From Opitutia bacterium Tous-C1TDCM (GTDB taxonomy: Bacteria > Verrucomicrobiota > Verrucomicrobiia > Opitutales > Opitutaceae): a stretch of 64,000 bases of DNA. The stretch spans positions 1 to 64,000 of the forward strand of contig NEUS01000001.1 of the NCBI GenBank assembly GCA_002288455.1, given 5' to 3'. Each line of letters opens with the position of its first letter. The stretch's first letter is position 1. Shown here in pieces: positions 455 to 62,487 of this stretch. The position numbers and the translations under genes are program-made. The notes below the pieces were generated by a model that ran no database searches, was not told where the DNA came from, and saw only the letters and a program-made list of their open reading frames with translations.

Positions 455-601
455 GTAAGCTTTAAGCTAAAAGCTGTAAGCGGAAAGCTGGCCCAGCCTT
501 TCGATCTTTGGCTTTCGGCTATCGCGCACATCTCACCGGGCACCGCTCCTCGCATATAGCATAAGGCTTATAGCTTACCGCTTACAGCTTTCCGCTTACT
601 G
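455..601. repeat. Inverted pair of degenerate heptad arrays (TAAGC family)
   Basis: Two arrays of short units built on AAGCTTA/AAGCTGT (about 455-490 and 553-601) are arranged as inverted repeats around a core of about 60 nt. The left array contains GTAAGCGGAAAGC and the right one GCTTTCCGCTTAC, which would pair. The element starts at the base after the oxidoreductase stop codon. A relative of the same family lies at 29047-29124. No gene is seen here. Confidence 0.7.
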
Positions 602-619
602 CCCCCAAAAAAAATTCCC

Positions 620-1160
620 ATGTCCCATTCCTACGTGATGAGTTCCCGCCGGGTCGCCGGCCGCGGTGCGGCGGCGGTCTTCGAGGCCGAGCCCGGCAAA
701 ATGCGTTTTCTCAAGGTGCCGGCCGGCGAAGTGTACCGGCCCGCGCACGAGATTTCCCCGGCGGTCTGGTTCTAGGAAGTGCGCGACGCGGCCGACGGCA
801 TCGCGGACAGCCGCGTGAGCGAGGGCGGGGATGTCGTGATTTTCATCCACGGCTACAACAATTCGCCGCAGGTGATTTCGGAGCGGCAGAAGTTCCTGTC
901 CGAGGATCTCGCGGCGGAGGGATTCAGCGGCGTGGTGATTTCCTTCGATTGGCCGGCGGCGAACTCAACGCTGAATTACCTCGAGGATCGTTCCGATGCC
1001 GCGGCGGTGGCGAAGCTGCTCGTGACCTACGGCATCGCGCGACTCTTGCGCGGACAGGAGGAAGGCTGCAAAACCAACGTGCACCTGCTCGGGCATTCGA
1101 CGGGCGCGTACATCATCTGCGAGGCGTTGGCGCAGGCGGAAAAGGACGGCGTGGGAGAAA
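620..1160 (+). pseudogene. Truncated alpha/beta-hydrolase with in-frame TAG
   Basis: Reading from ATG 620, the frame meets TAG at 773-775 and then continues in the same frame as a recognisable alpha/beta-hydrolase. It has the oxyanion-side motif 'VVIFIHGYNN' and the nucleophile elbow 'LLGHSTGAYI', as in DUF900/lipase-like esterases. The hydrolase sequence stops abruptly at about 1158, where a 51-bp repeat begins, so the C-terminal part carrying the acid and His of the triad is missing. A premature stop plus truncation indicates a decayed gene. An internal GTG at 779 could still express a fragment, but no complete fold would result. Confidence 0.75.
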
Positions 1161-1209
1161 TGGGGTCAAAGCGCGAACCGCGAATCGGAGCTCAGCCGAA
1201 CTCATGCGG
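1159..1209. repeat. 51-bp direct repeat, copy A
   Basis: This 51-nt block reappears at 1515-1565 in the same orientation with one mismatch (1190 G versus A). It contains TGGGGTCAAAGCGCGAACCG. It forms the junction between the broken hydrolase and the broken glycerophosphodiesterase fragment. A shorter inverted relative lies at 1670-1697. No transposase is present, so this looks like a small non-autonomous or REP-like element; the type is inferred. Confidence 0.85.
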
Positions 1210-1514
1210 GTGGCGTCGTGCATCAGGACGATGGTGCCGTCCTTGGTCCGGCGGAGATCGATTTCGAGCATCGCCCAGGTGGCGCCGACGGTGGCCGCGA
1301 AGGTGGCGAGGCAGTTTTCCGGCAGGCCGACGCCGGCGCCGCCGCGGTGGGCGCTGACCAAGTGAAGGCGGGTGCCGTCGGGGCGGAAGAGGGCGCGCAG
1401 GCCGGCGGGGGTTTGCGGATCGAGGGCGAAGGCGGTGGCCGCGGCGGGTTGCGCGCGGAGGCCGGCGGCGAGGCCGAGGAGGAGAGCGGCGGCGAGGAGG
1501 GGGGCACGTAGAGG
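1210..1514 (-). pseudogene. Glycerophosphodiester phosphodiesterase, N-terminal fragment
   Basis: Read on the minus strand, the segment encodes a hydrophobic signal-peptide-like stretch (LLAAALLLGLAAGLRAQ). The start of a GDPD barrel follows: 'SAHRGG' (catalytic HR), 'LPEN', then 'MLEIDLRRTKDGTIVLMHD' with the metal-binding E-D pair and the HD motif. It stops just after 'HDATR', where repeat copy A begins. Its start codon is lost because repeat copy B replaces the upstream sequence. About 100 of the usual 250-300 residues remain. It is a remnant held between two direct repeats. Confidence 0.75.
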
Positions 1515-1565
1515 AATGGGGTCAAAGCGCGAACCGCGAATCGGAACTCAGCCGAACTCATGCGG
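1515..1565. repeat. 51-bp direct repeat, copy B
   Basis: Second copy of the block at 1159-1209, same orientation, one mismatch. It abuts the 5' end of the glycerophosphodiesterase fragment and appears to have removed its start codon. Confidence 0.85.
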
Positions 1566-1572
1566 TTGAGCG

Positions 1573-1606
1573 AGCTCGGTCGGGAGTTGAGCGCAAAACC
1601 GCCCGG
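1573..1606 (+). repeat. 34-bp dispersed repeat, copy 1
   Basis: This 34-nt block matches the reverse complement of 18077-18110 at 30 of 34 positions; it includes GGGAGTTGAG and ends in AACCGCCCGG. It shares the GTTGAG heptad motif with the 3'-end tandem repeats elsewhere in the window. Confidence 0.7.
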
Positions 1607-1669
1607 CTTAGGAGCGGAGTTGCCAAACAGTGGGGCGGTGCGGTGGCTCCGCGCGGCGAGGGAGCGGCC

Positions 1670-1738
1670 GGATTCGCGATTCGCGTATTGACCCCTTGGG
1701 CGGGGTCTTGGGCGGGGTCCCTTGGGCGGGGTCGGGCG
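1670..1738. repeat. Partial inverted copy of the 51-bp element plus short tandem repeat
   Basis: Positions 1670-1697 resemble the reverse complement of the 51-bp element (GATTCGCG...TTGACCCC). They are followed by three imperfect copies of a 12-14-nt unit built on TTGGGCGGGGTC (about 1694-1738). GACCCC and GGGGTC can pair. The block lies 9 nt beyond the stop codon of the minus-strand protease gene, where a transcript end would be expected. Confidence 0.55.
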
Positions 1739-1747: not shown

Positions 1748-4700
1748 TTACCAGCTGTCGGCGGTCTTCTTTTGGTGGGCGAGGATGGCGAGGCGGAGGC
1801 GTTCTTTGGCGGCTTGGTCTTTCCAACCGAGTTGGTCGTAGAGGGCGGCGCGCTGGATGCGGAGTTTCTTGTCGGAGGGGTCGTCTTTGATGCGGGCGTT
1901 GAGGGCGTCGAGGGCGAGGCCGAGGTGGCCGGCTTGCTCCAACATCGCGGCTTCGATCGCCTTCGTCTGCTTGTCGCCGGTCTCCGGTTCCCAGCGTTTG
2001 ATTTCGGCGAAGGCTTTCCAGGCGGCGTCCCACTGCGCGGTGGCGCGGAGGACGTCGGTGCGGAGGCGCTCGATCTTCGCGAGGGTATCGCGCTGGGCGG
2101 TGAACTTCTTCTTCTCGCGTTCGAGCGCGGGCTTGGCTGCGGCGTCGGCTGCGGCGATCGCGGGTGGGGCGCCGAAGTAGCGGGCGACGGCGTCGGGGTC
2201 GGCAAGTTTGCGCGCCTCGTCGAGCAGGGCGACGACGGGGGCGGCGGTCTCGGCGGAGACGGCGGCCGTTTTCTCGGCGGGTTTTTCGTCGTCGTCGGTT
2301 TTGGGTTTGGTGTCGTCGGTTTTGGCGGGGGCGGCGGGCTTGGCCTTGGGCCAGGTGTCGCCAGCGAGCTTGGCGGCAAGCGCGGCATCGAGGGCGGCTT
2401 CGAAGGCGGTGGCGGCGTCGGCGGGGCGTTCGGCGCGGAGGGCGGCGAGGACCTCGGTGCGGCGGGCGAGGACGGCGGCATCGGTCGTGCCGCGGTGTTC
2501 GCGGACGAAGGCGAGGCGGCTGTCGTAGAGGGAGTCGGCGAGTTTCTCGACGTCGCTGCGATCGTCCTTCACGGGCTTGGCCTTGGGCGCGACATTCGTG
2601 ACCTTGGAGGGCGCGGTGCCGCCGAGATAAACGAGGGGCTGGCGGGCGAGCTCGCGGTTTTCGGTATCCTTGATTTGGATATCGCCGAGGAAGTGCGCGG
2701 GCTTGGGCTCGTGTTTGGCGAGGTCCTCGACGGCTTTGTCCTGGAGGAAAATGACTTCCTGGCGGCCGGCGGCGAGTTTGAGCTCGGTGGTGTCTTTGCC
2801 GAAGAAGCGGTCGCGGAGGTTGGCGCGGACGGGCACGGGGCGGACGGTCTTGAGCGGTTCGGCGAGGCGGAGCGGGAGGGTCGCGAGCGAGGCGAGCAGC
2901 TCGGGTTCGGCGGCGACGAATTCGCGGACGGCGATGGTCTTGCCTTTGGGCAATTTCACGGCGGCGCGGCCGGGGGCGGAGCTGTTGCTGCCGAGGCTGT
3001 CGAAGAGTTTCTCGCCGGATTCGTGGACGAGAGTGACGCGGCCACCGCCGACGGCGTCGGACAAATCGTAGTCTTCATTGGCGAGGACGTGGACGCTGAC
3101 GGATTCCTTGAATTCCAAGGTGAACCGCTGGCGCAGGACCGTCGGGCGGGCGGGGCCGGGGGTGAGGGCGGAGGCGGGGAACTCGGCGTGTTCGTCCATT
3201 TTCAGGTTGGACGTGGTCTCGGGGAGGAAGACATGGACGGCGCGGTCGAGCTTGGCCTCGACCTTGACGTCGCGGTCGGCGAACGGATCGAGATCGACGG
3301 AAGTCCACGGCGTGTTGGCCGGCATGACGACGGGGGCGGAGCCGAGGCCGGGGCCGATCCATTCGAGCTTGGTGGCGAGGGTGGCGTCGCCGACGGCGCT
3401 GAAGAGCATGGCGAGGGCGATTTCGGCGACGGCGCCGGGCCGAATGCGCAGGTCGAAGGTGCGTTCCTCGCCGGGCTCCAGGGTGAGATTCTGGTCGGTC
3501 TCGAAGGCGGCGATATGGGTCTGGGCGGCGAAGGCGAGGGCCTGGACGACGAAGCGGCGGACGAGGGCGTCGGGCGCGCGGTGCTGCACCGTGATGCGGA
3601 GGCGGGTGGCGCCGTCGGGGGCGGCGACGAAGAGGCGCTTGGTTTGCGCGGGCTTCAGGTCGACGGCGGTTTCGAGTTTGTGATCTTTGAAGGCGGAGGC
3701 GGGCGCGGGTTGGATGACGGTGACGGGAATCGAGAACACGGGGCCGAGTTCGGGTTTGCCGGCGAGGCGGGCGTCGACGCGCGCGACGTACAGGGAGCCG
3801 AGTTGGCCGGCAGGCACGGGCGGAACATCGACGATGAGGCTGAGGGTGCGGGGGCCGTTGGCGACGTGGACGAAATCCGGAGCGGTGATCCACGGCACGG
3901 AGGGTTTGAGGACGACATCGCTTTCGAACGCGAAGCGGGCGGCGGGCGGCACGGATTCGGGCCAGTAGGGAATCACGCGGGCGGTGAAGCGGCGGCGGGG
4001 ATTTTCGATGGATTCACGGAGGAGCAGGCCGCGGCCTTTCGCAGTGAAGGTGCCGCCGTCGACTTCGAGATCGTAGTAGGCGCCGAAGGCGGGTTGGCCC
4101 TGGAGCGCCTGGAGTTTGGCCCAGCCGCCGGGGGCGTTGATGAGGCCGGAGCCGCGGGTGAGTTCGTCTTCCTGCGGGAGGGGCGAGGCGCCGAGGATGA
4201 GGGCGGCGCGGAGGCGGGCGGGGGAGGCGTCGAGTTTTTGCTGTTTCGCGGCGCTGAGCACGAGGGCGGCGACGCCGACGGCGGAGGGCGAGGCCATGGA
4301 GGTGCCGTTCATCATTTCCGCGCCGCGCAGGCCTTCGGCGGAGGTGGAGGCGAAGGCGGCGCCGGGGGCCATGAGATCGACGCCGACATCGCCGTCCTTG
4401 GTCGGACCGCGGCTGGTGAAGCCTTGGGCGGAGTCGGGGCTGGCGGCGAGGGTCTGGTAGAGGACGCGGCCCATTTCGGTGGACATGTAGGCGCCGACGC
4501 CGAGGACGCGGCTGGCTTCCGCGCCGGCGTTCCCGGCGGTGCCGAGGGCGGGGCCGTTGTTGCCGGCGGACATGACGGCGAGGATGTCGAAGCGCTCGAT
4601 CAGGCTGTCGTAGAGGCGGCTGCTGCGATTGCGACCATCCTGGAGAAACGAGCGGCCGCCCCAGCTGGCGTTCATGAGGTCGACCTTGTAACGGGCGGAG

Positions 4701-5731
4701 AGGGCGATGGCGCGGGTCTCGCTCAGGCCGTAGGAACTGCCGCCGGTGCGGATGTCGCCGATCTTGATGGAGAGGATGCGGGCGCCGGGGGCGATGCCGT
4801 CGCGGGAACGTTCCGACGGGAAATGGGCGGCGGCGATGGCGGCGACGTGGGTGCCGTGGTTGCCGCTGACGGTGACGACGGAGAGGAGATCGCCGTTTTC
4901 GTAAACCTGGACGCCGAAGGTGGTGAACGTGATTTCGCCGAAGGAGGCGTATTCGCCGGCGACGCCGAAGGGGCGGAGGATTTTTTCGTCGGCGAGGTCG
5001 CCGTCTTCGTCGGTGTCGACGAGGACGCGCCAGTCTTTGCCGTCTTGCCAGACGACGCAGTCGAAGACGGCGCCGGGTTCCTCGCCGGCCTTGCCTTCTT
5101 CGAGGGCGGCGAGGGCGGCGGTGCGGGCGAGGAGATCGCGTTCGGGGCGGGAGCGGTCGTCGGCGGCCTTGGCTTTGGCGGATTTGAGTTTGGCGGCATC
5201 GGCGCCGCGGTCGCGTTCGGCCTGGCGGAGGGAGGCGGCGGCGGCGCGGGCGGCGGCGCGGCGGTCGTTGAGGCGTTTGAGAACGTCGCCGTAAAACAGT
5301 TCCGACGCGGGCTTGAGGCCGAGGCGGTATTCACCGGACGGATTCGTCACGCCGGCGGGGAGGACGAGGGAGCGGCCGCTGAGACCGGCGAGTTTGCCGT
5401 CGGCGCCGGGTTTGCGTTTCACCGTGGTGGGGACGTCGCCGGAGCCGGAGGCGTCGAGGATGTCGACGAGTTTGCGTTGGCCGGTCGACGTGACGGAAAG
5501 ACCGGCGGCGGCGGGATCGACGCCGGTGTCGAAGACGGCGATGACGACCTCGCGGCCGTCGAAGGTGGGGTTGGCTTTGAGGAATTGGTCGGCGGCGACC
5601 TCGCGTTTCGGGATCAGGGCGGAGCGCAGCGCGGCGACATCGGGGTCGGCGGAGGGCGCGGGGGCGGCGGGGAGCGAAGCGGTGAACGCGAGGGCGGCGC
5701 AGAGGAAGGCGCGGGCGGTCGGAGGGAGCAT
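1748..5731 (-). CDS. Secreted tripeptidyl-peptidase II-like subtilisin (S8) protease
   Basis: 1327 residues beginning with a signal peptide (about residues 1-23). The catalytic triad of family S8 is visible: D68 in 'AVFDTGVDP', H292 in 'NHGTHVA' and S478 in 'NGTSMASP', with the oxyanion Asn at about N391 ('SAGNNGP'). The segment after the Asp ('GQRKLVDILDASGSGDV'), the insert of about 220 residues between Asp and His, and the total length match tripeptidyl-peptidase II rather than ordinary subtilisins. Long beta-rich regions follow, then an Ala/Lys-rich helical C-terminus. TPP II releases tripeptides from peptide N-termini in the eukaryotic cytosol; here the signal peptide points to export. 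The minus-strand aminotransferase gene ends 48 nt upstream, so the two may be co-transcribed. Confidence 0.85.
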   Translation of the reverse strand: MLPPTARAFLCAALAFTASLPAAPAPSADPDVAALRSALIPKREVAADQFLKANPTFDGREVVIAVFDTGVDPAAAGLSVTSTGQRKLVDILDASGSGDVPTTVKRKPGADGKLAGLSGRSLVLPAGVTNPSGEYRLGLKPASELFYGDVLKRLNDRRAAARAAAASLRQAERDRGADAAKLKSAKAKAADDRSRPERDLLARTAALAALEEGKAGEEPGAVFDCVVWQDGKDWRVLVDTDEDGDLADEKILRPFGVAGEYASFGEITFTTFGVQVYENGDLLSVVTVSGNHGTHVAAIAAAHFPSERSRDGIAPGARILSIKIGDIRTGGSSYGLSETRAIALSARYKVDLMNASWGGRSFLQDGRNRSSRLYDSLIERFDILAVMSAGNNGPALGTAGNAGAEASRVLGVGAYMSTEMGRVLYQTLAASPDSAQGFTSRGPTKDGDVGVDLMAPGAAFASTSAEGLRGAEMMNGTSMASPSAVGVAALVLSAAKQQKLDASPARLRAALILGASPLPQEDELTRGSGLINAPGGWAKLQALQGQPAFGAYYDLEVDGGTFTAKGRGLLLRESIENPRRRFTARVIPYWPESVPPAARFAFESDVVLKPSVPWITAPDFVHVANGPRTLSLIVDVPPVPAGQLGSLYVARVDARLAGKPELGPVFSIPVTVIQPAPASAFKDHKLETAVDLKPAQTKRLFVAAPDGATRLRITVQHRAPDALVRRFVVQALAFAAQTHIAAFETDQNLTLEPGEERTFDLRIRPGAVAEIALAMLFSAVGDATLATKLEWIGPGLGSAPVVMPANTPWTSVDLDPFADRDVKVEAKLDRAVHVFLPETTSNLKMDEHAEFPASALTPGPARPTVLRQRFTLEFKESVSVHVLANEDYDLSDAVGGGRVTLVHESGEKLFDSLGSNSSAPGRAAVKLPKGKTIAVREFVAAEPELLASLATLPLRLAEPLKTVRPVPVRANLRDRFFGKDTTELKLAAGRQEVIFLQDKAVEDLAKHEPKPAHFLGDIQIKDTENRELARQPLVYLGGTAPSKVTNVAPKAKPVKDDRSDVEKLADSLYDSRLAFVREHRGTTDAAVLARRTEVLAALRAERPADAATAFEAALDAALAAKLAGDTWPKAKPAAPAKTDDTKPKTDDDEKPAEKTAAVSAETAAPVVALLDEARKLADPDAVARYFGAPPAIAAADAAAKPALEREKKKFTAQRDTLAKIERLRTDVLRATAQWDAAWKAFAEIKRWEPETGDKQTKAIEAAMLEQAGHLGLALDALNARIKDDPSDKKLRIQRAALYDQLGWKDQAAKERLRLAILAHQKKTADSW

Positions 5732-5771
5732 GGGAAAGGCGAAAGGTGGAAGGCGAAAGGCGGAAGGACGG
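5732..5771. repeat. Degenerate GGAAAGGC/GAAAGGT tandem tract
   Basis: About five 7-8-nt units of the type GAAAGGC/GAAAGGT lie between the aminotransferase stop codon (5780) and the protease start codon (5731), both on the minus strand. It belongs to the GTTGAAAG-like class of 3'-end repeats. Confidence 0.5.
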
Positions 5772-5779: not shown

Positions 5780-6976
5780 TCAGGGGGCGGGGACGAGGGC
5801 GCGGAGGCCGCGGACGAGGCGGCCGACGCCTTCGGCGGCGGTTTCGGCGGTGAGGGCGCCGTAAGCAACGCGGAGGTGGCAACCGCGGTCGAGGCCGAAG
5901 GCGTTGCCGGGGATGACGGCGACGCCGTGTTCACGGATGAGGCGTTCGGCGAGTTCCTGGGGGCTGCGCGGGGAGCGGACGCGGAGGAGAAAGTAGAACG
6001 CGCCGTCGGCCCGCGGCACGTCGGCGAGGCCTTCGCGGACGAGGGGATCCAATTCGGCCCGCACGCGGGTGCGGACTTGGGCGAGGGCGGCGAGGTGGGG
6101 GCGGAGGTAGGCGGGGCCGGCGGCGAGGGCGCCGACGGCGGCGAATTGGGAAATCACCGGCGGGCAGATGAGGAGGGTGTCCTGGATCTTGCGGAAGGCG
6201 GCCTCGAAGCGGGCGGGGTAGACGAGGCAGCCGATGCGCCAGCTGGCGAAGCCGTGGGATTTGGAAAGCGAGAAAAGCGAGATCGTGTGCGCGGCGGCGG
6301 ACGGGCTGGAGGCGGGGGAGAAATGGCGGGCGCCGTCGTAGGTGAACGCTTCATACGCCTCGTCGCTGAGGTGGCAGATGCGGTGTTCGGCGCAGAGGGC
6401 GCCGACGGCGCGGAGATCGCGTTCGGGGTAGACGGCGCCGGTGGGGTTGTTGGGCGAGACGGTGACGATGGCGCGGGTGCGCGGGGTGATGGCGGCGCGC
6501 AGGGCCGGGAGGTCGAGCTGGTGGTCGGCGTCGGTCGGCACGAGGACGGCGCGGCAATTGGCCAACGTGATCGCCATCTCGTGGTTGAAGTAATACGGGG
6601 TCGGCAGAATGAATTCGGCGCCGGGATCGGCGAGGGCGAGGACGGCGGCGAAGAAGGCGTTGTTGCCGCCGGCGGTGACCATAATCCGCAGGCCGGAGTC
6701 GCCGCGCGGGCCGGTGGTGCCGGTGGCGAGGCCGTGGTCCGCGGCGAGTTTGCGGGCGAGCGCTTCGAGCAGCGACGGGATGCCGGCGACGGGTTGGTAT
6801 TTGTGCTGCGCGGGATCGGCGTGGAACGCGGCGAGCGCGGCGATCGCCGCGGGCGGGGGACCGTAGCCGACGACGCCTTGCCCGAGGGAGATCGTGCCGG
6901 GATGGCGGCAGATCAGATCGGCGATGACCGGAATAATCGGGGCCTGGACGGCACGGAGCCGGAGGGATTCTTGCAT
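5780..6976 (-). CDS. PLP-dependent aminotransferase, class I/II
   Basis: 398 residues, fold-type I. 'SPNNPTG' lies at about 174-180, the cofactor-ring Asp at D205 in 'DEAYEAF', the Schiff-base lysine at K239 in 'SLSKSHGF', and the substrate-carboxylate arginine in 'SWRIG' soon after. The overall pattern ('GQGVVGYGPPP', 'NEMAI'-like segment) fits the aspartate/aromatic/methionine aminotransferase clade; the exact amino donor cannot be told. The ATG at 6976 was chosen because the frame upstream overlaps the divergent sulfatase gene. The protein is cytoplasmic with no signal peptide. The protease gene follows 48 nt downstream. Confidence 0.85.
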   Translation of the reverse strand: MQESLRLRAVQAPIIPVIADLICRHPGTISLGQGVVGYGPPPAAIAALAAFHADPAQHKYQPVAGIPSLLEALARKLAADHGLATGTTGPRGDSGLRIMVTAGGNNAFFAAVLALADPGAEFILPTPYYFNHEMAITLANCRAVLVPTDADHQLDLPALRAAITPRTRAIVTVSPNNPTGAVYPERDLRAVGALCAEHRICHLSDEAYEAFTYDGARHFSPASSPSAAAHTISLFSLSKSHGFASWRIGCLVYPARFEAAFRKIQDTLLICPPVISQFAAVGALAAGPAYLRPHLAALAQVRTRVRAELDPLVREGLADVPRADGAFYFLLRVRSPRSPQELAERLIREHGVAVIPGNAFGLDRGCHLRVAYGALTAETAAEGVGRLVRGLRALVPAP

Positions 6977-7064: not shown

Positions 7065-7100
7065 GTTGACAGGTGAAAGTTGAAAGGTGAAAGACCGGAC
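7065..7100 (+). repeat. GTTGAAAG heptad tract with ACCGGAC edge
   Basis: Units GTTGACA-GGTGAAA-GTTGAAA-GGTGAAA-G are followed by ACCGGAC. This same edge pattern (heptads, then A[CT]CGG/CGATC) recurs at 18000, 31370, 33550, 47775 and 61120. It lies in the divergent region between the aminotransferase and sulfatase genes, the only tract of this class not next to a stop codon. Confidence 0.6.
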
Positions 7101-17098: not shown

Positions 17099-17965
17099 AT
17101 GTCCCGTCTTCCCGTCACCAAAACCCCGAAGCCCTACGTCGGCGGCGCCTTTATCCGCTCCGAGAGCGGCCGCACGTACCCGCTGGCCGATGCCGCCGGC
17201 GCCTTCTTCGCCCACCTGCCGCAGTGCACGCGGAAGGATCTGCGCAACGCCGTCGAGGCCGCGGCCAAGGCCGGCCCCGGCTGGGCGAAACGCACGGCGT
17301 ACAACCGCGGCCAGATCCTTTACCGTCTCGCCGAGATGCTCGAAGCGCGCGCCGAAGAAATGACCGCCGTGCTGGTCCGCTTCGGCGTTGCCCGGGCCGC
17401 GGCCGCTCGCGAAGTCGCCGCCGCTGTCGACCGCCTCGTGTACTACGCCGGCTGGGCCGACAAGTACGAGCAGGTGCTCGGCAACGTGAACCCCGTCGCG
17501 TCGCCGCATTTCAATTTCACCGTCACCGAACCGATGGGCATCGTCGGCGTCGTCGCGCCCGATGCGCCGTCGCTGCTCGGCCTCGTTTCCCTCGTCGCCC
17601 CTGTGATCGTCAGCGGCAACACCGTCGTCGCGCTCGCCTCGGAGGCGACGCCCTATCCCGCCGTGCTGCTCGGCGAAATGCTCGCGACCAGCGATCTGCC
17701 CGGCGGCGTCGTCAATTTGCTCACCGGATTCCGCCGCGAATTGGTCCCGACGTTTGCCACGCATGCGCACCTGCGCGCGCTCAACGCTGCCGTCGGGCCC
17801 GAGGACGCGAAGGCGCTGCGGCTCGGCGCCGCCGACAGCATCAAGCGCGTGCGGATCGCGGGCGCCGCCAAGCCGGCCGATTGGCTGTCCGCCCGCGAGG
17901 AGAGTGTTTACGCGATCCGCGATTTCCTCGAGTTCAAGACGACCTGGCACCCGATCGGCGCCTGA
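17099..17965 (+). CDS. Truncated, cysteine-less aldehyde dehydrogenase-like protein
   Basis: 288 residues, matching only part of an aldehyde dehydrogenase: N-terminal 'KPYVGGAFIRSESGRTYPL' and 'MGIVGVVAPDAPSLLGLVSLVAPVIVSGNTVVALAS', then 'LPGGVVNLLTG'. The stretch that should carry the catalytic Glu and Cys is absent, and the lysine of the cofactor site is replaced ('ALAS' instead of 'LKPA'). It starts 27 nt after the real ALDH gene and is probably co-translated with it. A structural or regulatory partner, like the non-catalytic second domain of ALDH16 proteins, is the best inference. Confidence 0.85.
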   Translation: MSRLPVTKTPKPYVGGAFIRSESGRTYPLADAAGAFFAHLPQCTRKDLRNAVEAAAKAGPGWAKRTAYNRGQILYRLAEMLEARAEEMTAVLVRFGVARAAAAREVAAAVDRLVYYAGWADKYEQVLGNVNPVASPHFNFTVTEPMGIVGVVAPDAPSLLGLVSLVAPVIVSGNTVVALASEATPYPAVLLGEMLATSDLPGGVVNLLTGFRRELVPTFATHAHLRALNAAVGPEDAKALRLGAADSIKRVRIAGAAKPADWLSAREESVYAIRDFLEFKTTWHPIGA

Positions 17966-17979
17966 GCCGGACTGATGCA

Positions 17980-18110
17980 GTTGAGAGTGGAAAGTTGAAG
18001 GTTGAGAGATCGATCCGAGATAGGTCGGGTCGGAACCTGGGTAAGGAAATGTGACCGCAGCACGATACGTGCGAAACCGGGCGGTTCTGCTCTCAACTCC
18101 CAACCAAGCT
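17980..18110. repeat. Inverted pair of GTTGAGAG heptad arrays with core
   Basis: The left array (GTTGAGA/GTTGAAG units, 17980-18008) is followed by the edge ATCGATCCG. A core of about 80 nt leads to the right array (CTCTCAACTCCCAAC, 18090-18104) in inverted orientation. The right end (18077-18110) matches 1573-1606 at 30 of 34 positions. It begins 14 nt after the aldehyde dehydrogenase-like stop codon. Confidence 0.65.
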
Positions 18111-18205
18111 TGCGCGACTACACGAGTGCGCCTGAGCCAGCGGAAAACGGCATTCCGCCCGCCGCGGCGTTGACGTCGTCCCGGCGTTGCGTCGACGTTT
18201 CGTCC

Positions 18206-20836: not shown

Positions 20837-21564
20837 AAGCCCTCATCATCGACGACGAGCGCCTCGCGCGCAACGAACTGCGCCGGCTGCTGGCCGCGTA
20901 TCCGGATCTTGAAGTCGCCGGCGAGGCCGCCAACGCGAAGCAGGCGCGCGAGCAGCTCGCCGCCCTCCGGCCCGGGCTCATTTTCCTCGACGTGCAGATG
21001 CCCGGGGAGACCGGCCTCCAGCTGCTCGAGACCCTCGAGCCGCCCGTGCCGCACGTGATCTTCACCACCGCCTACGACGAGTTCGCGGTGAAGGCCTTCG
21101 AGCTCAACGCGCTCGACTACCTGCTCAAGCCCGTCGACCCCGCGCGCTTCGCCGCCGCGATCGACCGCCTCCGCGCCAAGGTCGCCGCCGGCCCCGCCGC
21201 CGGCCCGAAGGCGCCGCCGCGCGAATGGCTCGCCGCGGAGGACAAGGTCTTCGTCCGCGAGGGCGACCGTTGCTGGTTCGTCGAGGTGAAGGCGATCCGC
21301 CTGCTCGAAAGCGAAGGGAACTACACCCGCGTGCATTTCGACACCGCCCAACCCCAGCTTTTCCGTTCCCTCAACGCCATGGAGGAGCGGCTCGATCCGA
21401 AGTATTTCTTCCGCGCCAACCGGCGCCAGATCATCAACCTCGCCTGGATCGAGAAAATCGAGCCGTGGTTCAGCGGCGGCCTGCTTGTCCACCTCAAGGG
21501 CGGCGCCAAGGTCGAGCTGAGCCGCCGCCAAGCCCAGGATTTCCGCGAGCAGATGAGTCTCTGA
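20833..21564 (+). CDS. LytTR-family response regulator
   Basis: 243 residues. Receiver domain: 'IIDDERLARNELRRLL', phospho-acceptor D53 in 'LIFLDVQMPGETGLQLL', 'FTTAYDEFAVKAFELNALDYLLKP'. The LytTR DNA-binding domain covers about 140-243 ('IRLLESEGNYTRVHF', 'FFRANRRQIINLAWI'). It overlaps the kinase gene by 4 nt, so the pair is coupled. An ABC exporter starts 133 nt downstream in the same direction and may be its target; that link is inferred from position. Confidence 0.93.
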   Translation: MKALIIDDERLARNELRRLLAAYPDLEVAGEAANAKQAREQLAALRPGLIFLDVQMPGETGLQLLETLEPPVPHVIFTTAYDEFAVKAFELNALDYLLKPVDPARFAAAIDRLRAKVAAGPAAGPKAPPREWLAAEDKVFVREGDRCWFVEVKAIRLLESEGNYTRVHFDTAQPQLFRSLNAMEERLDPKYFFRANRRQIINLAWIEKIEPWFSGGLLVHLKGGAKVELSRRQAQDFREQMSL

Positions 21565-21697
21565 AAATCGGAAAACCGGGAAATTGGAAAATCGGGAAAC
21601 CTCGCGCGCCGGACGTGCTTGTTTCCTCGGACTTCCCCGGCCCGAGCACCGTTTTCCTCTTTCCCGCTTTCCGCCTTTTCCACTTTTCGGAATTCCC
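21564..21697. repeat. Inverted pair of GGAAAATC octad arrays
   Basis: Left array GAAAATCG-GAAAACCG-GGAAATTG-GAAAATCG (21564-21600), then a core of about 50 nt, then TTTCCCGCTTTCCGCC-type units (21651-21690) in inverted orientation. The element starts at the last base of the response-regulator stop codon and fills the whole gap to the ABC ATPase start. Confidence 0.6.
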
Positions 21698-27260: not shown

Positions 27261-27277
27261 GCCGGCGGGCGGGGAGA

Positions 27278-27362
27278 AGTTGAGAGTTGGGAGCTCGTGC
27301 CGGACCCCTGCGGACCGGTCCGCTTTCCGGGCCTTCAACTTTCACCCTTCAACTTTCAACTG
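27278..27362. repeat. Inverted pair of heptad arrays with core
   Basis: Left AGTTGAGAGTTGGGAGCTCG (27278-27297), right CTTCAACTTTCACCCTTCAA and onward (27333-27362), inverted around a GC-rich core of about 35 nt. It sits between the convergent phosphorylase and HDOD genes, 17 and 24 nt from their stop codons. The core resembles that of 31283-31402. Confidence 0.65.
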
Positions 27363-27386
27363 CGGGCGCGGCGCAGCCGCGCCCGC

Positions 27387-29124: not shown

Positions 29125-29126
29125 GA

Positions 29127-30176: not shown

Positions 30177-30330
30177 GGCGGGGAAGGCGGGAGCGTCGCG
30201 GCGCGACGGCGACGGCGCAAGGTTGCGCTCGTCACAAACCCGCGGCGACGCGGTGACGCCGTGCCGCACTCGCGGTCGCCGGCTTGGTTTTTGGTGGGCT
30301 TGAGGCGGGGTTTGCGGCCTGCTGGGCACG

Positions 30331-31278: not shown

Positions 31279-31282
31279 GGGG

Positions 31283-45112: not shown

Positions 45113-45133
45113 CACTTTCACCTTTCAACCGCG
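45113..45133 (+). repeat. CTTTCACCTTTCAAC heptad tract
   Basis: Short inverted-sense member of the GTTGAAAG family (CACTTTCACCTTTCAACCGC), 45 nt after the GH109 stop codon. Confidence 0.5.
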
Positions 45134-46813: not shown

Positions 46814-46826
46814 ATGTAATTGGGGA

Positions 46827-46976
46827 TTGCGGATCGCGGATTGCGGAATGTTCCGAAACCGGAATGCGGAGACCGGAAACCGGAATCCGGAATCCCGAAT
46901 TCCCCTTTCCTCAACTCCGAACTCCGAACTCCGAACTCCGAACTCCGAACTCCGAACTCCGAACTCCGCGCCGTCC
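46827..46976. repeat. GGATTGCG and GAACTCC tandem arrays
   Basis: First GGATTGC/GGATCGC units (46827-46852), then CCGGAAAC/CCGGAATC octads (about 46855-46905). A clean heptad array ACTCCGA follows, present as eight perfect units and one variant (46914-46976). It lies between the convergent oleC and TRIC-type genes, 13 nt after the oleC stop. A GATTGC-type tract in reverse sense occurs inside the gene at 50412-53525. Confidence 0.85.
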
Positions 46977-47015
46977 CCCATAACCCAAAACTCAAAACCC
47001 AAAACCCAGAACTCC

Positions 47016-47688: not shown

Positions 47689-47771
47689 CGGATCGGCAGC
47701 TCAGCAAAATTCATAAATTGGAAAAACGGGATCGGCCGCGCGCCTTGGACTTCGGCAATTCGTCGCCTTGG

Positions 47772-47808
47772 TTCCGATCTTTCAACTTTCAACCTTCACC
47801 TTTCAACC
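47772..47808. repeat. TTTCAACTTTCAACC heptad tract with CCGATC edge
   Basis: TTCCGATC (47772-47779) is followed by TTTCAAC-TTTCAAC-CTTCACC-TTTCAACC. In reverse this reads as GTTGAAAG heptads with the edge ATCGGAACC, as at 18000. It lies 17 nt beyond the asparaginase stop codon (minus strand). Confidence 0.65.
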
Positions 47809-47825
47809 GGCCCGGCCCGCCGGGC

Positions 47826-48998: not shown

Positions 48999-50345
48999 AT
49001 GAAGACACCCCGCTTCTCCCGCCGCGCCTTTCTGCAACAAGGCGCCGCCGCTGCCGTCGTCGCCGGTCTGGCCGGCTGCCAAACCGCCGGTCCGGCCTTG
49101 AAACCGATGCCGCGCGCCGCCCGCCGCCTCGGGCCCAACGACCGCCCCGGCATCGCCCTCGTCGGCTGTGGCGGCCAAGGTACCAACGTCGCCCTCATGG
49201 CCGCCGCCCACGGCAACGTGCTCGCCGTCTGCGATGTCGACTCCGCCCAGGCCGCCAAGGCCGCCGACCGCCTCGCCGTCGACGGCCGCAAGCCGGAGAT
49301 CGTGTCCGACTTCCGCCGCCTGCTCGAACGCGACGATATCCACGTCCTCGTCAACGGCACGCCCGACCACTGGCACACCCTCGTCAACCTCGGCGCCGCC
49401 CGCGCCGGCAAAGATGTCTACGCCGAGAAACCGCTCACGTTGACGATCGACGAAGGCCGCGTGCTCGTGCGCGCCGTGCGCGAAAGCGGCATCGTTCTCC
49501 AAACCGGCACGCAGCAGCGCAGCTCGCAGCGTTTCCGCCAGGCCTGCGAATTCGTGCGCAACGGGCGCATCGGCAAATTGCGGGGCGCCAATGTCTGGCT
49601 GCCCGCGGGGCTGCGCGAGGGCCCCTTCAAGACCGCGGCCATTCCCGAAACGTTGAACTGGGACTACTGGCTCGGGCCCGCGCCCAAGGTCGCGTACATG
49701 AAGGAACGCTGCCTCCGCACCTTCCGCTTTTGGTACGATTACTCCGGCGGCACCATGACCGACTGGGGCGCCCACCACAACGACATCGCCTACTGGGCGA
49801 TCGGCCAGGTCGCCCCCCGCGAAGTCGCGTCCCGCATTCTCGCCGCGCCGATTCCCGGCGGCTACGACGCCATCAGCGAATACGAGGTCAACTACACCTA
49901 CGCCGACGGCACGCGGCTCAACATCTTCACCACCCGCGACGACAGCATCTACGGCGCCAAGGTGAACGCCGACGGCCAGCGCAACGGCATCCGTTTCGAA
50001 GGCTCCGCCGGTTGGATCTGGGTCAATCGCGACGGCATCAAGGCCAGCGATCCGGAAATCCTGAAATTGCCGCTGCCGGAAAACGCGGTCCGGCTCTACG
50101 AGAGCAAAAATCACATGGAAAACTTCTTCGCCTGCGTGCGCTCGCGGAAAGATCCGATCTGCGACGTCGAGACCGGCCACCGCTCCGCCACCATGTGCCA
50201 CCTCGGCGCGATCTCGCTGCGCACGGGCCGCAGTCTCACCTGGGACGGTACCGCCGAAAAATTCGTCGGCGCCCACGCCGGCGAGGCCAACCGCTACGTG
50301 CGCCGCGAAATGCGCGCGCCCTACGACTACACCTTCATCGCGTAG
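48999..50345 (+). CDS. Tat-exported Gfo/Idh/MocA-family oxidoreductase
   Basis: 448 residues. Twin-arginine signal 'FSRRAFLQQGAAAAVVAGLAGC', ending in a lipobox-like AGC. NAD-binding 'PGIALVGCGGQGTNVALM' and 'VLAVCDVDS'. The E-K-P motif 'DVYAEKPLTLTIDEGR' with catalytic Lys is present, with 'MTDWGAHHNDIAYWAI' carrying the D-x-x-x-H pair. Full length for the exported family common in Planctomycetes and Verrucomicrobia, thought to act on sugars or inositols. The C-terminus is closely similar to the partial protein at the left edge. TTGACG at 48904 may be a -35 box. The stop codon lies inside a 9-bp tandem repeat. Confidence 0.92.
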   Translation: MKTPRFSRRAFLQQGAAAAVVAGLAGCQTAGPALKPMPRAARRLGPNDRPGIALVGCGGQGTNVALMAAAHGNVLAVCDVDSAQAAKAADRLAVDGRKPEIVSDFRRLLERDDIHVLVNGTPDHWHTLVNLGAARAGKDVYAEKPLTLTIDEGRVLVRAVRESGIVLQTGTQQRSSQRFRQACEFVRNGRIGKLRGANVWLPAGLREGPFKTAAIPETLNWDYWLGPAPKVAYMKERCLRTFRFWYDYSGGTMTDWGAHHNDIAYWAIGQVAPREVASRILAAPIPGGYDAISEYEVNYTYADGTRLNIFTTRDDSIYGAKVNADGQRNGIRFEGSAGWIWVNRDGIKASDPEILKLPLPENAVRLYESKNHMENFFACVRSRKDPICDVETGHRSATMCHLGAISLRTGRSLTWDGTAEKFVGAHAGEANRYVRREMRAPYDYTFIA

Positions 50346-50382
50346 CCCACGTAGCCCGCGTAGCCCGGAGCTTCAGCCCGGG
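50341..50382. repeat. CGTAGCCCG 9-bp tandem repeat and hairpin
   Basis: Three copies of CGTAGCCC[AG] (50341-50367) run into CCCGG-loop-CCGGG (50365-50382). The TAG stop of the oxidoreductase gene (50343-50345) is part of the first unit. Confidence 0.75.
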
Positions 50383-53544: not shown

Positions 53545-53579
53545 CTCCGAACTCCAAACTCCGAACCCCGAACTCCGGG
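53545..53579 (+). repeat. GAACTCC heptad tract
   Basis: CTCCGAA-CTCCAAA-CTCCGAA-CCCCGAA-CTCCGGG, same family as 46914-46976, 19 nt after the stop codon of the PSCyt1 gene and directly before the DUF1501 start. Confidence 0.75.
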
Positions 53580-53591: not shown

Positions 53592-55037
53592 ATGTCTTCC
53601 TTCGATCCCGCCACCCACGCCCGCAGCGTCAACCGCCGCACCTTCCTCACCCAGAGCGCCTACGGCCTCGGCGGCATCGCGTTCGCGTTGCTGCAGCAGA
53701 AACTAGCCGCCGCCGGCGCCGCGCCCGCGAACTTGCCGCCGGGCTGGAACGGCGCCCTGCGCGAGTCCCATTTCCCCGTGCGCGCCAAGCGCGTGATTTT
53801 CCTCTGCATGGCCGGCGGTCCCTCGCAGCTCGAGACCTTCGATTGGAAACCGCAGCTCAAGGCCCTCGACGGCCAGCCGTTTCCCGAATCCTTCACCAAG
53901 GGCCAGCAACTCGCGCAGTTGCAGAACACCGTGCTCAAGGCCCGGGGCAGCTTCACGAACTTCGCCCGCCACGGCCGGGCCGGCATCGAGATCAGCGAAC
54001 TGTTCCCGCACCTCGCCACCGTGGCCGACGACCTCTGCGTCGTCCGCTCGATGCAAACCGAGCAGATCAACCACGACACCGCGCACGCGTTCATGAACAC
54101 CGGCTCCATCATCAAGGGCCGGCCCAGCATGGGCTCGTGGCTGCTCTACGGCCTCGGCGCCGAGACGCAGGATCTGCCCGGGTTCATCGTGCTCAATTCC
54201 CAGGGCAAATTCGGCCTCCAGCCGATTTCCGCGCGGCAATGGTCGAGCGGCGTGCTGCCGAGCCGGTTCCAAGGCATCCAGTTCCAGTCCCGCGGCGACG
54301 CCGTCCACTACGTCGGCAATCCCGACGGCGTGTGCCAAAGTACGCAGCGGCTCGTCGTCGAGGAGATCAAGCGCATGAACGGTCTCCTTGCCGAAGAAAG
54401 GGCCGATCCCGAAATCGCGACCCGCATCGCCCAGTACGAGATGGCGTTCAAGATGCAGAGCAGCGTGCCCGAGCTCACCGATTTCAAAAACGAGTCCCAG
54501 GCCATGCTCGATCTTTACGGCATCAAGGAGCCGGGCGACGGCAGCTACGCGTCGAATTGCTTGCTCGCCCGCCGCCTCGCCGAACGCGGCGTGCGCATGA
54601 TCCAGTTGTATCACCGCGCCTGGGACCACCACGGCGACCTCGAGCCTGGCATGAAGGCCGGCGCCAAGGAAGTCGACCAGGCCACCGCCGCCCTGATCAA
54701 GGACCTGAAGCAACGCGGCATGCTCGACGACACGTTGATTCTCTGGGGCGGCGAATTCGGCCGCACACCGATGGGGCAGGGCACCGGCCGCGACCACCAT
54801 ATCCTCGGGTTCAGTGTCTTCATGGCCGGCGGCGGCGTGAAGGCCGGCCAAGTCTACGGCGCCACCGACGAACTCGGCTACAAGGCCGTCGACCGCGTCG
54901 TCTCCGTGCACGACCTGCACGCCACGATGCTCGCCCTCATGGGCGTCGACCACCGCCGGCTCAACACGAAGTTCCAGGGCCTCGACGTCCGCCTCACCGG
55001 CATCGCCGGCGAAGTCGTCAAAGATCTCATCGCGTAG
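53592..55037 (+). CDS. DUF1501 family protein (Tat-exported, sulfatase-like fold)
   Basis: 481 residues. The N-terminus carries 'NRRTFLTQSAYGLGGIAFALL', a twin-arginine-type signal. DUF1501 hallmarks follow: 'RAKRVIFLCMAGGPSQLETFDWKP', 'VVRSMQTEQINHDTAHAFMNTG', 'GRPSMGSWLLYGLG', 'RGVRMIQLYHRAWDHHG' and 'TLILWGGEFGRTPMGQGTGRDHH'. The fold is related to alkaline phosphatase/sulfatase; activity is unknown. It pairs with the PSCyt1/DUF1549/DUF1553 gene 66 nt upstream, a conserved couple in Planctomycetes and Verrucomicrobia. ATG 53592 is preferred over an in-frame TTG at 53580. Confidence 0.93.
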   Translation: MSSFDPATHARSVNRRTFLTQSAYGLGGIAFALLQQKLAAAGAAPANLPPGWNGALRESHFPVRAKRVIFLCMAGGPSQLETFDWKPQLKALDGQPFPESFTKGQQLAQLQNTVLKARGSFTNFARHGRAGIEISELFPHLATVADDLCVVRSMQTEQINHDTAHAFMNTGSIIKGRPSMGSWLLYGLGAETQDLPGFIVLNSQGKFGLQPISARQWSSGVLPSRFQGIQFQSRGDAVHYVGNPDGVCQSTQRLVVEEIKRMNGLLAEERADPEIATRIAQYEMAFKMQSSVPELTDFKNESQAMLDLYGIKEPGDGSYASNCLLARRLAERGVRMIQLYHRAWDHHGDLEPGMKAGAKEVDQATAALIKDLKQRGMLDDTLILWGGEFGRTPMGQGTGRDHHILGFSVFMAGGGVKAGQVYGATDELGYKAVDRVVSVHDLHATMLALMGVDHRRLNTKFQGLDVRLTGIAGEVVKDLIA

Positions 55038-61095: not shown

Positions 61096-61118
61096 GACAC
61101 GACGGTTTGAGGTCCGGC

Positions 61119-61150
61119 TCTTTCAGCCTTCACCTTTCACCCTTCAACTG
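61119..61150 (+). repeat. CTTCACCTTTCACCCTTCAAC heptad tract
   Basis: GTCCGGCTC edge (61112-61120), then TTTCAGC-CTTCACC-TTTCACC-CTTCAAC. In reverse this is the GTTGAAAG family with edge GAGCCGGACC, as at 7065. It starts 23 nt after the esterase stop codon. Confidence 0.6.
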
Positions 61151-61218
61151 CCCCGGGCCCCGTGACCGACTGCGCGCTCGACAACGCGCGGTGCGGTTGT
61201 TCTCTTCCCGCCATTCCG

Positions 61219-61296
61219 ATGTCCGTCCGCGCCGTCATTATTGCCGTCATGATTATGATTCGCCTCGAATCAGGGCGGCGGCGCGTGACTGCATAA
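61219..61296 (+). CDS. Isoleucine-rich leader peptide of ilvA
   Basis: 25-codon frame from ATG 61219 to TAA 61294-61296. Ile is encoded at codons 7, 8, 12 and 14 and Val at 3, 6, 10 and 23 ('AVIIAVMIMIRLE'). The Ile run lies just upstream of the antiterminator strand at 61270-61281, so ribosome stalling there for lack of charged tRNA-Ile would leave that strand free. It precedes threonine ammonia-lyase, the first step of isoleucine synthesis. This is a classic attenuator leader by layout. Confidence 0.8.
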   Translation: MSVRAVIIAVMIMIRLESGRRRVTA

Positions 61297-61357
61297 CGAG
61301 AACCTACAGTCACTTTCAACCGCAGCCCTGAGCCGAAAGCTCAGGGCTTTTTGTTTT
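61270..61357 (+). promoter_or_regulatory. ilvA transcription attenuator
   Basis: The antiterminator strand 61270-61281 (TCAGGGCGGCGG) pairs with 61320-61331 (CCGCAGCCCTGA) with one mismatch. The alternative terminator uses 61324-61333 (AGCCCTGAGC) and 61339-61348 (GCTCAGGGCT), loop CGAAA, followed by TTTTTGTTTT. The two structures share 61324-61331 and exclude each other. The terminator ends 18 nt before the ilvA ATG. Confidence 0.85.
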
Positions 61358-61375
61358 CCCAAATCGCCTTCCGCC

Positions 61376-62389
61376 ATGAATCCGCTCCCTGTCCCGACCT
61401 TCGGTCTTGCCGCTGTCGCCGCCGCCCGCCGCCGTTTGGCGCACGGGCTCCGGCTCACGCCGTGCGCCCTCGCGCCCGCGCTGTCGGAGATTGCCGGGAT
61501 GGAAATCCGGCTGAAGCGCGACGACCTCCAGCGCACCGGCTCCTTCAAAGAACGCGGCGCCCGCCACGCCCTGCTTTGCCTCTCGCCCGAGGAACGCGCC
61601 CGCGGAGTCGTCGCCGCTTCCGCCGGCAACCACGCCCTCGGCCTTGCCTACCACGGCGCCCAGCTCGGCGTGAAGGTCACCGTCGTCGTCCCCGCCAACG
61701 CGCCCGCCGTGAAGCTCGCCCGTTGCCGCAGTCTCGGCGCGGAGGTCGTCGTGTCCGGCGCCACGTTCGCCGCCGCCGAAGCCGAGGCCGGCGCCCTCGT
61801 GGCCGCGCGCGGCGCCACGCTCGTCCATCCCTTCGACGACCTGCGGGTCATCGCCGGCCAGGGCACGCTCGGACTCGAGGTGTTGGAGCAAGCGCCTGAC
61901 CTCGACACGATCGTCGTGCCGGTCGGCGGCGGCGGCCTGATCGCCGGCGTGGCCACGGCGGTGAAGGCGTTGCGTCCGGACGTACGGGTCGTCGCCGTCG
62001 AGCCGGCCCATGCCGCGGGCTTTGTCTCCGCGTACTTGGCGGGCGGGCCCGCGCCTGCGGCCTTGGCGCCGACCTTGGCCGACGGCCTCGCCGTCGCGCG
62101 CATGGGCGCGAACACCTTTGCGCTGGCCGCGCCGCTGATCGACGACCTCGTGACCGTGACGGAGGAGGAACTCGCCCGCGCGGTCGCGCTGCTCGCCCGC
62201 CGTTGCGGTGCCGTGGTCGAAGGCGCCGGCGCCGCGGCCTTGGCGGCCGCCATCTCCGGCAAGGTGCGCGCCCGCTCCGCCGTGCTCGTGGTCAGCGGCC
62301 GCAACATCGACCCCGCCGCGCACCGCGCTGTGCTCGATGCCTGGTCCGATGCCGCCGCCGCGGCGCCATGTCTGGCCCGCGCCGCCTAA
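61376..62389 (+). CDS. ilvA: Threonine ammonia-lyase (threonine dehydratase), short form
   Basis: 337 residues, fold-type II PLP enzyme. The cofactor lysine is K58 in 'RTGSFKERGARHAL', the cofactor ring site is 'ASAGNHALGLAYHG', the phosphate-binding Gly loop is 'VPVGGGGLIAGVATAVK', and 'VVSGRNID' closes the site. It deaminates threonine to 2-oxobutanoate. It lacks the C-terminal ACT regulatory domain of biosynthetic IlvA (over 500 residues in E. coli), so allosteric inhibition by isoleucine is not expected. The isoleucine attenuator upstream would provide the control instead (inferred). A serine racemase or serine dehydratase side activity is possible. Confidence 0.88.
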   Translation: MNPLPVPTFGLAAVAAARRRLAHGLRLTPCALAPALSEIAGMEIRLKRDDLQRTGSFKERGARHALLCLSPEERARGVVAASAGNHALGLAYHGAQLGVKVTVVVPANAPAVKLARCRSLGAEVVVSGATFAAAEAEAGALVAARGATLVHPFDDLRVIAGQGTLGLEVLEQAPDLDTIVVPVGGGGLIAGVATAVKALRPDVRVVAVEPAHAAGFVSAYLAGGPAPAALAPTLADGLAVARMGANTFALAAPLIDDLVTVTEEELARAVALLARRCGAVVEGAGAAALAAAISGKVRARSAVLVVSGRNIDPAAHRAVLDAWSDAAAAAPCLARAA

Positions 62390-62424
62390 AGCCACGGGAC
62401 CGCGCCCTCCGCCCGCTCTATCCG

Positions 62425-62487
62425 TCCCATAAGTCCCATAGGACCCATAGGACCCATAGGACCCATAGGACCCATAGGACCCATAAC
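62425..62487 (+). repeat. CCCATAGGA 9-bp tandem repeat, seven units
   Basis: Seven consecutive 9-nt units (TCCCATAAG, TCCCATAGG, four copies of ACCCATAGG, ACCCATAAC). It lies 35 nt after the ilvA stop codon. Confidence 0.9.

Follow-up and report, generated by a model that had tools for sequence, protein, structure and literature searches.

Heptad arrays downstream of stop codons in an Opitutia genome and a palindromic repeat element whose ends coincide with stops

Short tandem repeats were analysed in the intergenic gaps of a 64,000-nucleotide stretch of DNA (hereafter, the window), which comprises the initial 64 kb of a 112-kb contig (NEUS01000001.1) of the freshwater Opitutia bacterium Tous-C1TDCM (assembly GCA_002288455.1; 4.15 Mb, 160 contigs, 85.8% completeness). 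Arrays of 7-bp units (heptads) that are G-rich on the coding strand are concentrated just downstream of stop codons, and one array family, designated family A, is a dispersed palindromic element with one end usually at a stop codon. An earlier note on the window had listed 16 gene ends followed by short repeats and had proposed a common positional process; all 16 are stops of independently called open reading frames (ORFs), each followed by a 7- to 9-mer or similar repeat, and the positional rule is real and strongly non-random, in gaps with as well as without a family A match. For family A, the copy number, the position of one end at a stop, direct TNA repeats, one empty site, and a bias in gap class were all observed. 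We regard as an even call the reading that family A resembles a miniature inverted-repeat transposable element (MITE) that targets stop codons and recreates the stop through duplication of its target, with the other heptad families possibly of the same kind.

The analysis covered 1.12 Mb of the window's own genome (G000; about a quarter of the genome, in contigs of a metagenome-assembled genome [MAG]) and 480 kb of a genome of the same genus (G007), in which a custom script called 872 and 336 ORFs, respectively; all statistics depend on these ORF calls. The protein encoded at 53592–55037 has its nearest named match in a contig of an Opitutae MAG (90% identity). Tracts of period 7 to 9 were sought in every gap of at least 30 bp with a set tract threshold, to the exclusion of shorter gaps and weaker tracts (minimum gap 50 bp for hairpin counts and 40 bp for counts of T-tract terminators). 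In the first 750 kb of G000, 87 period-7 tracts were found in 379 such gaps, as compared to 1.1 in dinucleotide shuffles; period-8 and period-9 tracts were raised too (14 and 10, as compared to 0.75 each), as were periods 14 and 16, i.e., multiples of 7 and 8 (65 and 12 tracts), and each remaining period from 4 to 15 was represented by at most four tracts. Coding sequences contained 0.03 tracts per kb (periods 7 and 8) versus 0.5–4.4 per kb in gaps (periods 7 to 9). Tracts were present in 46/91 convergent, 57/368 tandem, and 10/117 divergent gaps of G000 and in 29/45, 31/134, and 5/55 of these gaps, respectively, in G007; the difference between convergent and tandem gaps was strong (p = 2e-11 in G000 and 1e-6 in G007), and that between tandem and divergent gaps was weak (p = 0.065 and 0.026). 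The window by itself shows no visible gradient (2/4 convergent, 12/23 tandem, and 2/6 divergent gaps with a tract), so that the larger sample is needed to see it.

Of the 48 arrays that are G-rich on the coding strand in tandem gaps of the two genomes, 39 are no more than 45 nt from the stop, as compared to 15.5 expected from random placement of these arrays within their own gaps; none of 2000 placements reached 39. Arrays that are C-rich on the coding strand are unbiased (23/73 within 45 nt, 29.5 expected). The stop bias described for the window thus stands for G-rich arrays and fails for C-rich arrays, which include the sites after 5780, 45067, 50345, 53525, 61095, and 62389. A distance test that was not split by strand composition was weak (35/59 tracts nearer the stop, 29.2 expected), which is explained once the arrays are split in this way. 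In convergent gaps, 93/116 tracts lie within 45 nt of either stop, as compared to 79.9 expected (p = 0.0015). Many arrays are paired, with a G-rich arm and a complementary C-rich arm of the same family, and in convergent and tandem gaps with several tracts a G-type tract never follows a C-type one in either genome. With two further relatives (G004 and G022) added, 9/13 G-rich but T-rich arrays and 9/19 C-rich but A-rich arrays were near the stop, suggesting that G over C sorts the arrays somewhat better than A over T. In G022, the stop is at most 45 nt away from 3/4 G-rich arrays (0.4 expected), and the rule may extend to yet another unit in this genome. Octad arrays of GAGGGATT occur in tandem gaps of its contig C20.

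The consensus of family A is an imperfect palindrome of ~154 bp with inverted ends, two heptad arms, and a short middle. The terminal inverted ends read GCCG-N3-TCATGCAGTTGAGAG, and the AGCCGNNNTCATGCAGTTGAGAG ends occur as opposed pairs, typically 129 bp apart. A 154-position profile grown from the copy at 64174 and run on both strands gave 196 matches, which represent 113 distinct loci in 1.6 Mb (72 in G000 and 41 in G007), including 35 near-full-length copies; the ends matched at 100 positions with at most three mismatches in the whole G000 genome and at 71 with at most two in G007. The model touches 74 of the 178 tract-bearing gaps in the two genomes (45/75 convergent, 27/88 tandem, and 2/15 divergent), and in gaps with a match 16/18 G-rich tandem arrays are found no farther than 45 nt from the stop, as compared to 4.8 expected. 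The families named in the earlier note as unrelated are accordingly not all independent, since five of the eight GTTGARAG/CTTTCAAC places in the window (17965, 27260, 31278, 33508, and 47826) match family A; the three others (7067, 45114, and 61122) do not.

In 31 of the 35 near-full-length copies, one end is at most 4 nt from the preceding gene's stop, as compared to 9.2 expected and a maximum of 16 in 2000 random placements within the gaps. Stops make up a fraction of 0.49 (G000) and 0.38 (G007) of the CTNAG sites outside gene interiors and of 0.30 and 0.29 of the CTNA sites, shares that are too low for site availability to account for the position of the family A ends. A flexible search, for which there is no control, found an identical TNA triplet near both ends in 16/35 copies, every one of them on a called stop (TCA in 8, TGA in 7, and TTA in 1). 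Among the 21 copies with well-resolved ends, the middle base of TNA is equal at both ends in 15, as compared to a mean of 8.0 with shuffled partners (p = 0.0002), and the 3-nt flanks of the triplet agree between the ends no better than chance. The copy at 64173–64326, on the same contig just past the window, is present in G000 and cleanly absent from G007. Family A thus resembles MITEs in being short, non-coding (it has no room for a gene), dispersed, and multi-copy, with terminal inverted repeats, a target-site duplication, and, in one case, filled and empty alleles in related genomes; it is unlike them in that its arms are heptad arrays, its ends coincide with stop codons, and no parent element was recognised by eye.

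If family A is a mobile element of this kind, it would insert at a TNA triplet, in most cases one that serves as a gene's stop (TGA or TAA, on either strand), and duplicate the triplet, so that the upstream gene would keep its stop. IS1031-type elements duplicate TNA. Insertion would be harmless at a stop, and insertions in coding DNA or in promoters would be lost. As the arms run G-rich first and C-rich second, an element next to a stop would leave the gene followed, on its coding strand, by a G-rich array. A large share of the heptad arrays would then be arms, some of them decayed, of small, dispersed palindromes that have no room for a gene, and the arrays would afterwards drift through heptad turnover and loss of one arm. 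A transposase acting in trans would presumably mobilise the copies, the stop preference may arise at insertion or through selection, and heptad families that do not match the model may have the same origin. Family A ends on duplicated stops offer a testable reason for the position of the arrays in this family, as a gene would pay no price for an insertion that gives it back its stop.

Several observations weigh against this reading. No autonomous partner with family A ends was recognised when the end matches in G000 and G007 were inspected by eye, and the clean empty site is the only one. By eye, two copies (C106 8122 and G007 411561) have differing TNA triplets, the middle base differs in 6 of the 21 copies (some through imprecise ends), and 2 of the 35 near-full-length copies lie in divergent gaps. 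The TAAGCNN, GGAAAATC, AACTCCG, and CCCATAGGA families lack a demonstrated target duplication, and some arrays are preceded by GC hairpins of differing sequence or by GGATAA, without family A termini. Gaps without a family A match keep the stop rule (23/30 G-rich tandem arrays within 45 nt, 10.6 expected), which indicates that family A is not its only cause; family A explains part of the pattern, and the rest must be due either to similar elements or to a further process that places G-rich arrays after stops. Convergent gaps are also conserved between the two genomes (tract in both in five orthologous gaps, in neither in three, and in a single genome in none), which is more stability than freely moving elements would show. 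In G004, divergent gaps carry tracts about as often (3/24) as tandem gaps (5/66), and the loci examined from the nearest named relatives (L070–L073) contain no period-7 tract.

The comparison with G007 covered only the contig of the window, with 63 reciprocal best hits and 55 orthologous gaps, 39 of which are at least 30 nt in one genome. Besides the convergent gaps, it included 22 orthologous tandem gaps (tract in both genomes in five, in G000 alone in three, and in neither in 14) and nine divergent ones (tract in G000 alone in one and in neither in eight); orthologous arrays belong to the same family, with turnover among the unit variants. For one GTTGARR array pattern, genomes of the genus have between 0 and 690 overlapping matches each; a reverse-read control is invalid as a null for these counts, since with two mismatches allowed the reversed pattern picks up these arrays as well. 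Tracts were present in 3/147 gaps of G017 and 3/48 of G014 (in the parts analysed) and in 11/184 of G022. Arrays are thus variable within the genus and rare in some relatives, and look dispensable. G004 uses another heptad, AAAATCG, with tracts in 7/18 of its convergent gaps. Among 80 loci from other bacteria, mostly Verrucomicrobiota, 11 contain a period-7 tract, including one that consists of N only and one that is simply G-rich.

A role of the arrays at the RNA level would provide a different reason for their position, i.e., a hairpin next to the stop, together with an array or paired arms, may form a terminator (bidirectional between convergent genes) or a stabiliser of the mRNA 3′ end that is kept by selection. 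We consider this rather unlikely as the main explanation, even though the enrichment in convergent gaps and the proximity to stops are what it predicts. The best evidence for such a role comes from the stop-adjacent hairpins. GC hairpins with at most one mismatch that start within 10 nt of the stop were found at 18/110 (G000) and 13/61 (G007) of the 3′ ends that have an array no more than 60 nt away, as compared to 24/340 and 9/118 of the 3′ ends without tracts, 1/38 and 1/27 of those with a tract farther away, and 6/542 and 9/226 of the start sides; their sequence differs from site to site. In the hairpin at 27386, pairing is kept in G007 through two compensated pairs; however, the hairpin at 93738 lost one pair in G007 without compensation, and template switching at hairpins could also yield paired changes. 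Convergent gaps with arrays fold better relative to shuffles than those without (mean z of −3.1, n = 42, versus −1.65, n = 33), and, in the part of PMC4692102 drawn on here, transcripts are reported to end or start at quadruplex-forming heptads more often than at controls. Against RNA-level selection, self-complementary pairings on the coding strand of 40 tandem gaps with tracts contain 80 G-U and 85 A-C combinations, i.e., no excess of G-U, and folding of the coding strand is no more stable in G000 (23/51) and less stable in G007 (9/28, p = 0.003). Selection at the RNA level on the long pairings was therefore rejected, as there is no strand signature and the coding strand of G007 folds less well.

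The role in termination put forward in the earlier note found no clear support. Intrinsic terminators, i.e., a GC hairpin with a T-tract directly after it, were present in 10/46 convergent and 7/57 tandem gaps with arrays, so that the arrays as a group do not qualify as such; in tandem gaps overall, T-tract terminators were found 50 times in the sense and 9 times in the antisense orientation in 368 gaps. T-tract terminators were weakly and non-significantly rarer in convergent gaps with arrays than in those without (10/46 versus 16/43, p = 0.16; in G007, 5/29 versus 5/14, p = 0.25), and array-poor relatives did not have clearly more of them (1/14 convergent gaps in G017 and 2/6 in G014). Replacement of T-tract terminators by arrays was rejected on the basis of this weak avoidance and the lack of clear compensation in array-poor relatives. 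No known RNA family was detected at gathering threshold in the window. For annotation, a tract of this kind should not be assumed to be a terminator.

Expansion of the repeats in place was also weighed. Bare mRNA past the stop could rehybridise to the template and, through slippage at the resulting R-loop, expand whatever G-rich heptad is found there, with the palindromes as a secondary outcome. The persistence of the stop rule for G-rich arrays that do not match family A favours this proposal, as do the better sorting by G over C than by A over T, the turnover of unit variants in orthologous arrays that hold their family, and the finding of this rule for other sequences in Xanthomonas and Nostoc (reported in the part of PMC4692102 used here). 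Whole arrays, unit order, and inner sequence are, however, common to many loci, which marks them as copies, and complementary C arms are also present in tandem gaps, where no opposing gene ends. In addition, slippage or R-loops leave the TNA duplication and the exact stop-codon ends unexplained, and we judge this explanation unlikely. Independent slippage at each site as the sole cause, one of the processes suggested in the earlier note, was rejected in view of the unit order and inner sequence that many arrays at different loci share. Another alternative, in which neutral repeats are tolerated where they are harmless and avoidance of promoters and coding sequence alone gives a 3′ bias, is in line with the gradient from convergent to tandem to divergent gaps and with coding sequences that are nearly free of tracts; it is contradicted as sole cause by the non-random placement of G-rich, but not C-rich, arrays within tandem gaps, and the exact stop-codon ends of family A also count against it, making it improbable. 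RNA-templated, telomerase-like addition of heptads by a reverse transcriptase, a form of the RNA-templated mechanism raised in the earlier note, can point to unit families with a constant core and a variable dinucleotide and to one reverse transcriptase domain (PF00078) in G000, but is scarcely credible and was rejected, since no such domain was found in four array-rich relatives (G007, G013, G010, and G004).

The sole reverse transcriptase domain of G000 is located at 70208–70852 of the window's contig (C1), just past the window, in a 453-amino-acid open frame. The surrounding genes have G007 orthologues in the same order, and the frame itself has none in the G007 stretch compared. This frame may belong to a group II intron.

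Heptamers that are arranged in intergenic arrays have been described in other bacteria. Cyanobacterial short tandemly repeated repetitive sequences (STRRs) are intergenic heptamers with a fixed heptamer consensus. The closest parallel to the arrays reported here is with GGGAATC and GGGGA(C/T)T heptamers of Xanthomonas and Nostoc (a cyanobacterium), for which the part of PMC4692102 available reports that the repeats are intergenic, with few between divergent ORFs, that the G-rich strand is the sense strand and lies within 50 bp of the stop, that inverted pairs are frequent in Xanthomonas and few in Nostoc, that the repeats mostly occur in the same gaps of two related species with varying units, and that they form quadruplexes in vitro. 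The earlier note's statement that a 3′-end bias is undescribed was hence too strong. The arrays in the Opitutia genomes share with those heptamers the G-rich sense-strand units near stops, the scarcity in divergent gaps, and the inverted pairs; they differ, as far as that report goes, in that many heptad families are present in one genome and that one family is a palindrome with TNA duplicated at the stop codon. They are also unlike those heptamers in that four GGG runs were found in only 19/256 tracts (10/159 in G000 and 9/97 in G007), which does not qualify the arrays as quadruplex-forming repeats; 75 tracts in G000 and 48 in G007 contain at least one GGG run. As the same strand and stop rule is seen with so few such tracts, quadruplexes appear unnecessary for it. 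The positional rule itself is thus already known, and the additions made here are its generality beyond quadruplex-forming arrays and the element at stop codons.

Earlier reports of heptameric intergenic repeats came without a settled mechanism; the part of PMC4692102 consulted leaves the function open and centres on quadruplexes. Mobile palindromic elements that use stops regenerated by TNA duplication, together with a bias for expansion of the G-rich strand just beyond where ribosomes leave the mRNA, might lead to the same post-stop rule in unrelated phyla without quadruplexes, a proposal we offer tentatively and consider rather unlikely. TAACTGA repeats of Beggiatoaceae are also intergenic heptamers, though sets in the main genome studied there are close to the start codons of downstream genes, unlike those described here (PMC4679880, in the part used). 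Tandem repeats inside a MITE have a counterpart in the minisatellite reported within a MITE of Porphyromonas gingivalis (PMC4596501).

In the window, a full-length copy of family A is located at 17963–18135 (plus strand; nhmmer search of both strands); on the left it ends in the TGA that serves as stop for the gene ending at 17965, and TGA is found again at its right end. Partial matches are located at 33506–33617 (plus strand), at and after the stop at 33508, and at 47739–47810 (minus strand), the latter including GTTGAAAG heptads (47779–47808) after the minus-strand gene ending at 47826. The array at 33521–33551 is missing from the orthologous G007 gap. A family A core without an assigned strand (27277–27365) occupies a convergent gap; its GTTGAAAG heptads at 27332–27361, on the coding strand of the minus-strand gene 27387–29006, lie directly after a perfect 11-bp GC hairpin that adjoins the stop. 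Another core, at 31281–31411 (plus strand), consists of a GAGTTGA arm, an inner part, and a CTCTCAA arm and lacks the family A termini. The least clean of the sites first listed, near 1748, comprises a partial family A copy (1548–1610, plus strand), near the end of the minus-strand gene 1748–5731, and a 12/14-mer repeat (1693–1733).

Units other than GTTGARAG include TAAGCNN, GCTGANN, CCGGANN, GCGGANN, GTTYGGN, AACTCCG, and GGAAAATC. Within arrays, variation is concentrated in particular heptad phases (sum of squares of 1413, as compared to a maximum of 1205 in 1000 simulations, for 154 tracts), a strength that is overstated because copies of one array were taken as separate tracts. TAAGCNN heptads form a G-rich arm at 456–490, 1 nt after the stop at 454, with GCTTACA heptads as the complementary arm at 551–599 (both plus strand), and paired arms of TAAGCTC heptads are found at 29049–29124 (minus strand), after the minus-strand gene ending at 29127. 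The GGAAAATC octads have a G-rich arm at 21563–21599, at the stop at 21564, and a complementary arm (TTTTCCAC) at 21652–21688 (both plus strand). Several heptad families can adjoin in one gap, e.g., the convergent gap with a mosaic of ATTGCGG, GAATCCG, eight AACTCCG units, and CCCAAAA at 46819–47012 (plus strand); all four families are also present in the orthologous G007 gap. Arrays that are C-rich on the coding strand include GAAAGGC/CTTTCGCC heptads at 5734–5767 (minus strand), after the minus-strand gene 5780–6976, CTCCGAA heptads at 53545–53577 (plus strand), and TTCACCC heptads at 61122–61146 (plus strand). After the stop at 45067, a repeat is present as listed earlier, but the CTTTCAC/CTTTCAA tract (45114–45130, plus strand) has about two units and is below the detection threshold. 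The GTTGAAAGGTGAAAG array at 7065–7093 (plus strand), in a divergent gap, was said to be the sole exception to the stop rule; a weaker octad (30241–30267) lies in a divergent gap as well.

The CGTAGCCCG repeats at 50339–50382 (plus strand) overlap the TAG stop with their first unit. They contain a GTAG-tagged short palindrome, GTAGCCCGGAGCTTCAGCCCGGG, at 50360, which is of the type of repetitive extragenic palindromes (REPs) and of which 9 exact-pattern copies are present in the 1.12 Mb. As described in the part of PMC3733652 used here, GTAG REPs are palindromic, mostly in convergent and unidirectional gaps, and often supply a TAG stop with their termini; O. terrae is reported to be highly enriched in them. 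The tract at 50345 conforms to the tag. Apart from that account, no description of such repeats in Opitutae was recognised in the literature searches. The heptad elements are, by comparison with the 20–40 bp and the GTAG or CGTC tag given there, longer and untagged, and they use TNA. As regards a RAYT transposase flanked by REPs, one match to Y1_Tnp was found in G000, and no GTAGCCCGGAGCTTCAGCCCGGG-type palindrome was recognised from 600 bp before to 1400 bp after its start.

CCCATAGGA nonamers are located at 62424–62485 (plus strand), 34 nt after the stop at 62389. Another palindrome, GCAAAGTAACCCAATAGGTTACTTTGC or a close variant, was noted in three intergenic gaps (C1 62390–62838, C8 13588, and C106 1786); in the G007 gap orthologous to the first of these, the copy is missing. 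At C73 13358–13789, C10 10733, and G007 C19 148926, nonamer-type repeats (GGACACAGAGGACACGGAGG and related units) look like another dispersed family. A further sequence, GGAGCCTCTGAAAA, directly adjoins CTCAA/TTGAG-type heptads at six of the eight places found, seven of which are near contig ends; the places include 16820 in L009 (G000 C3), 101 in C95, 101 in C117, 59556 in C139, and 93 in C68 of G000 and 150856 in C19 of G007. This sequence has the appearance of an insertion sequence terminus, from an element that targets heptad arrays and breaks the assembly.

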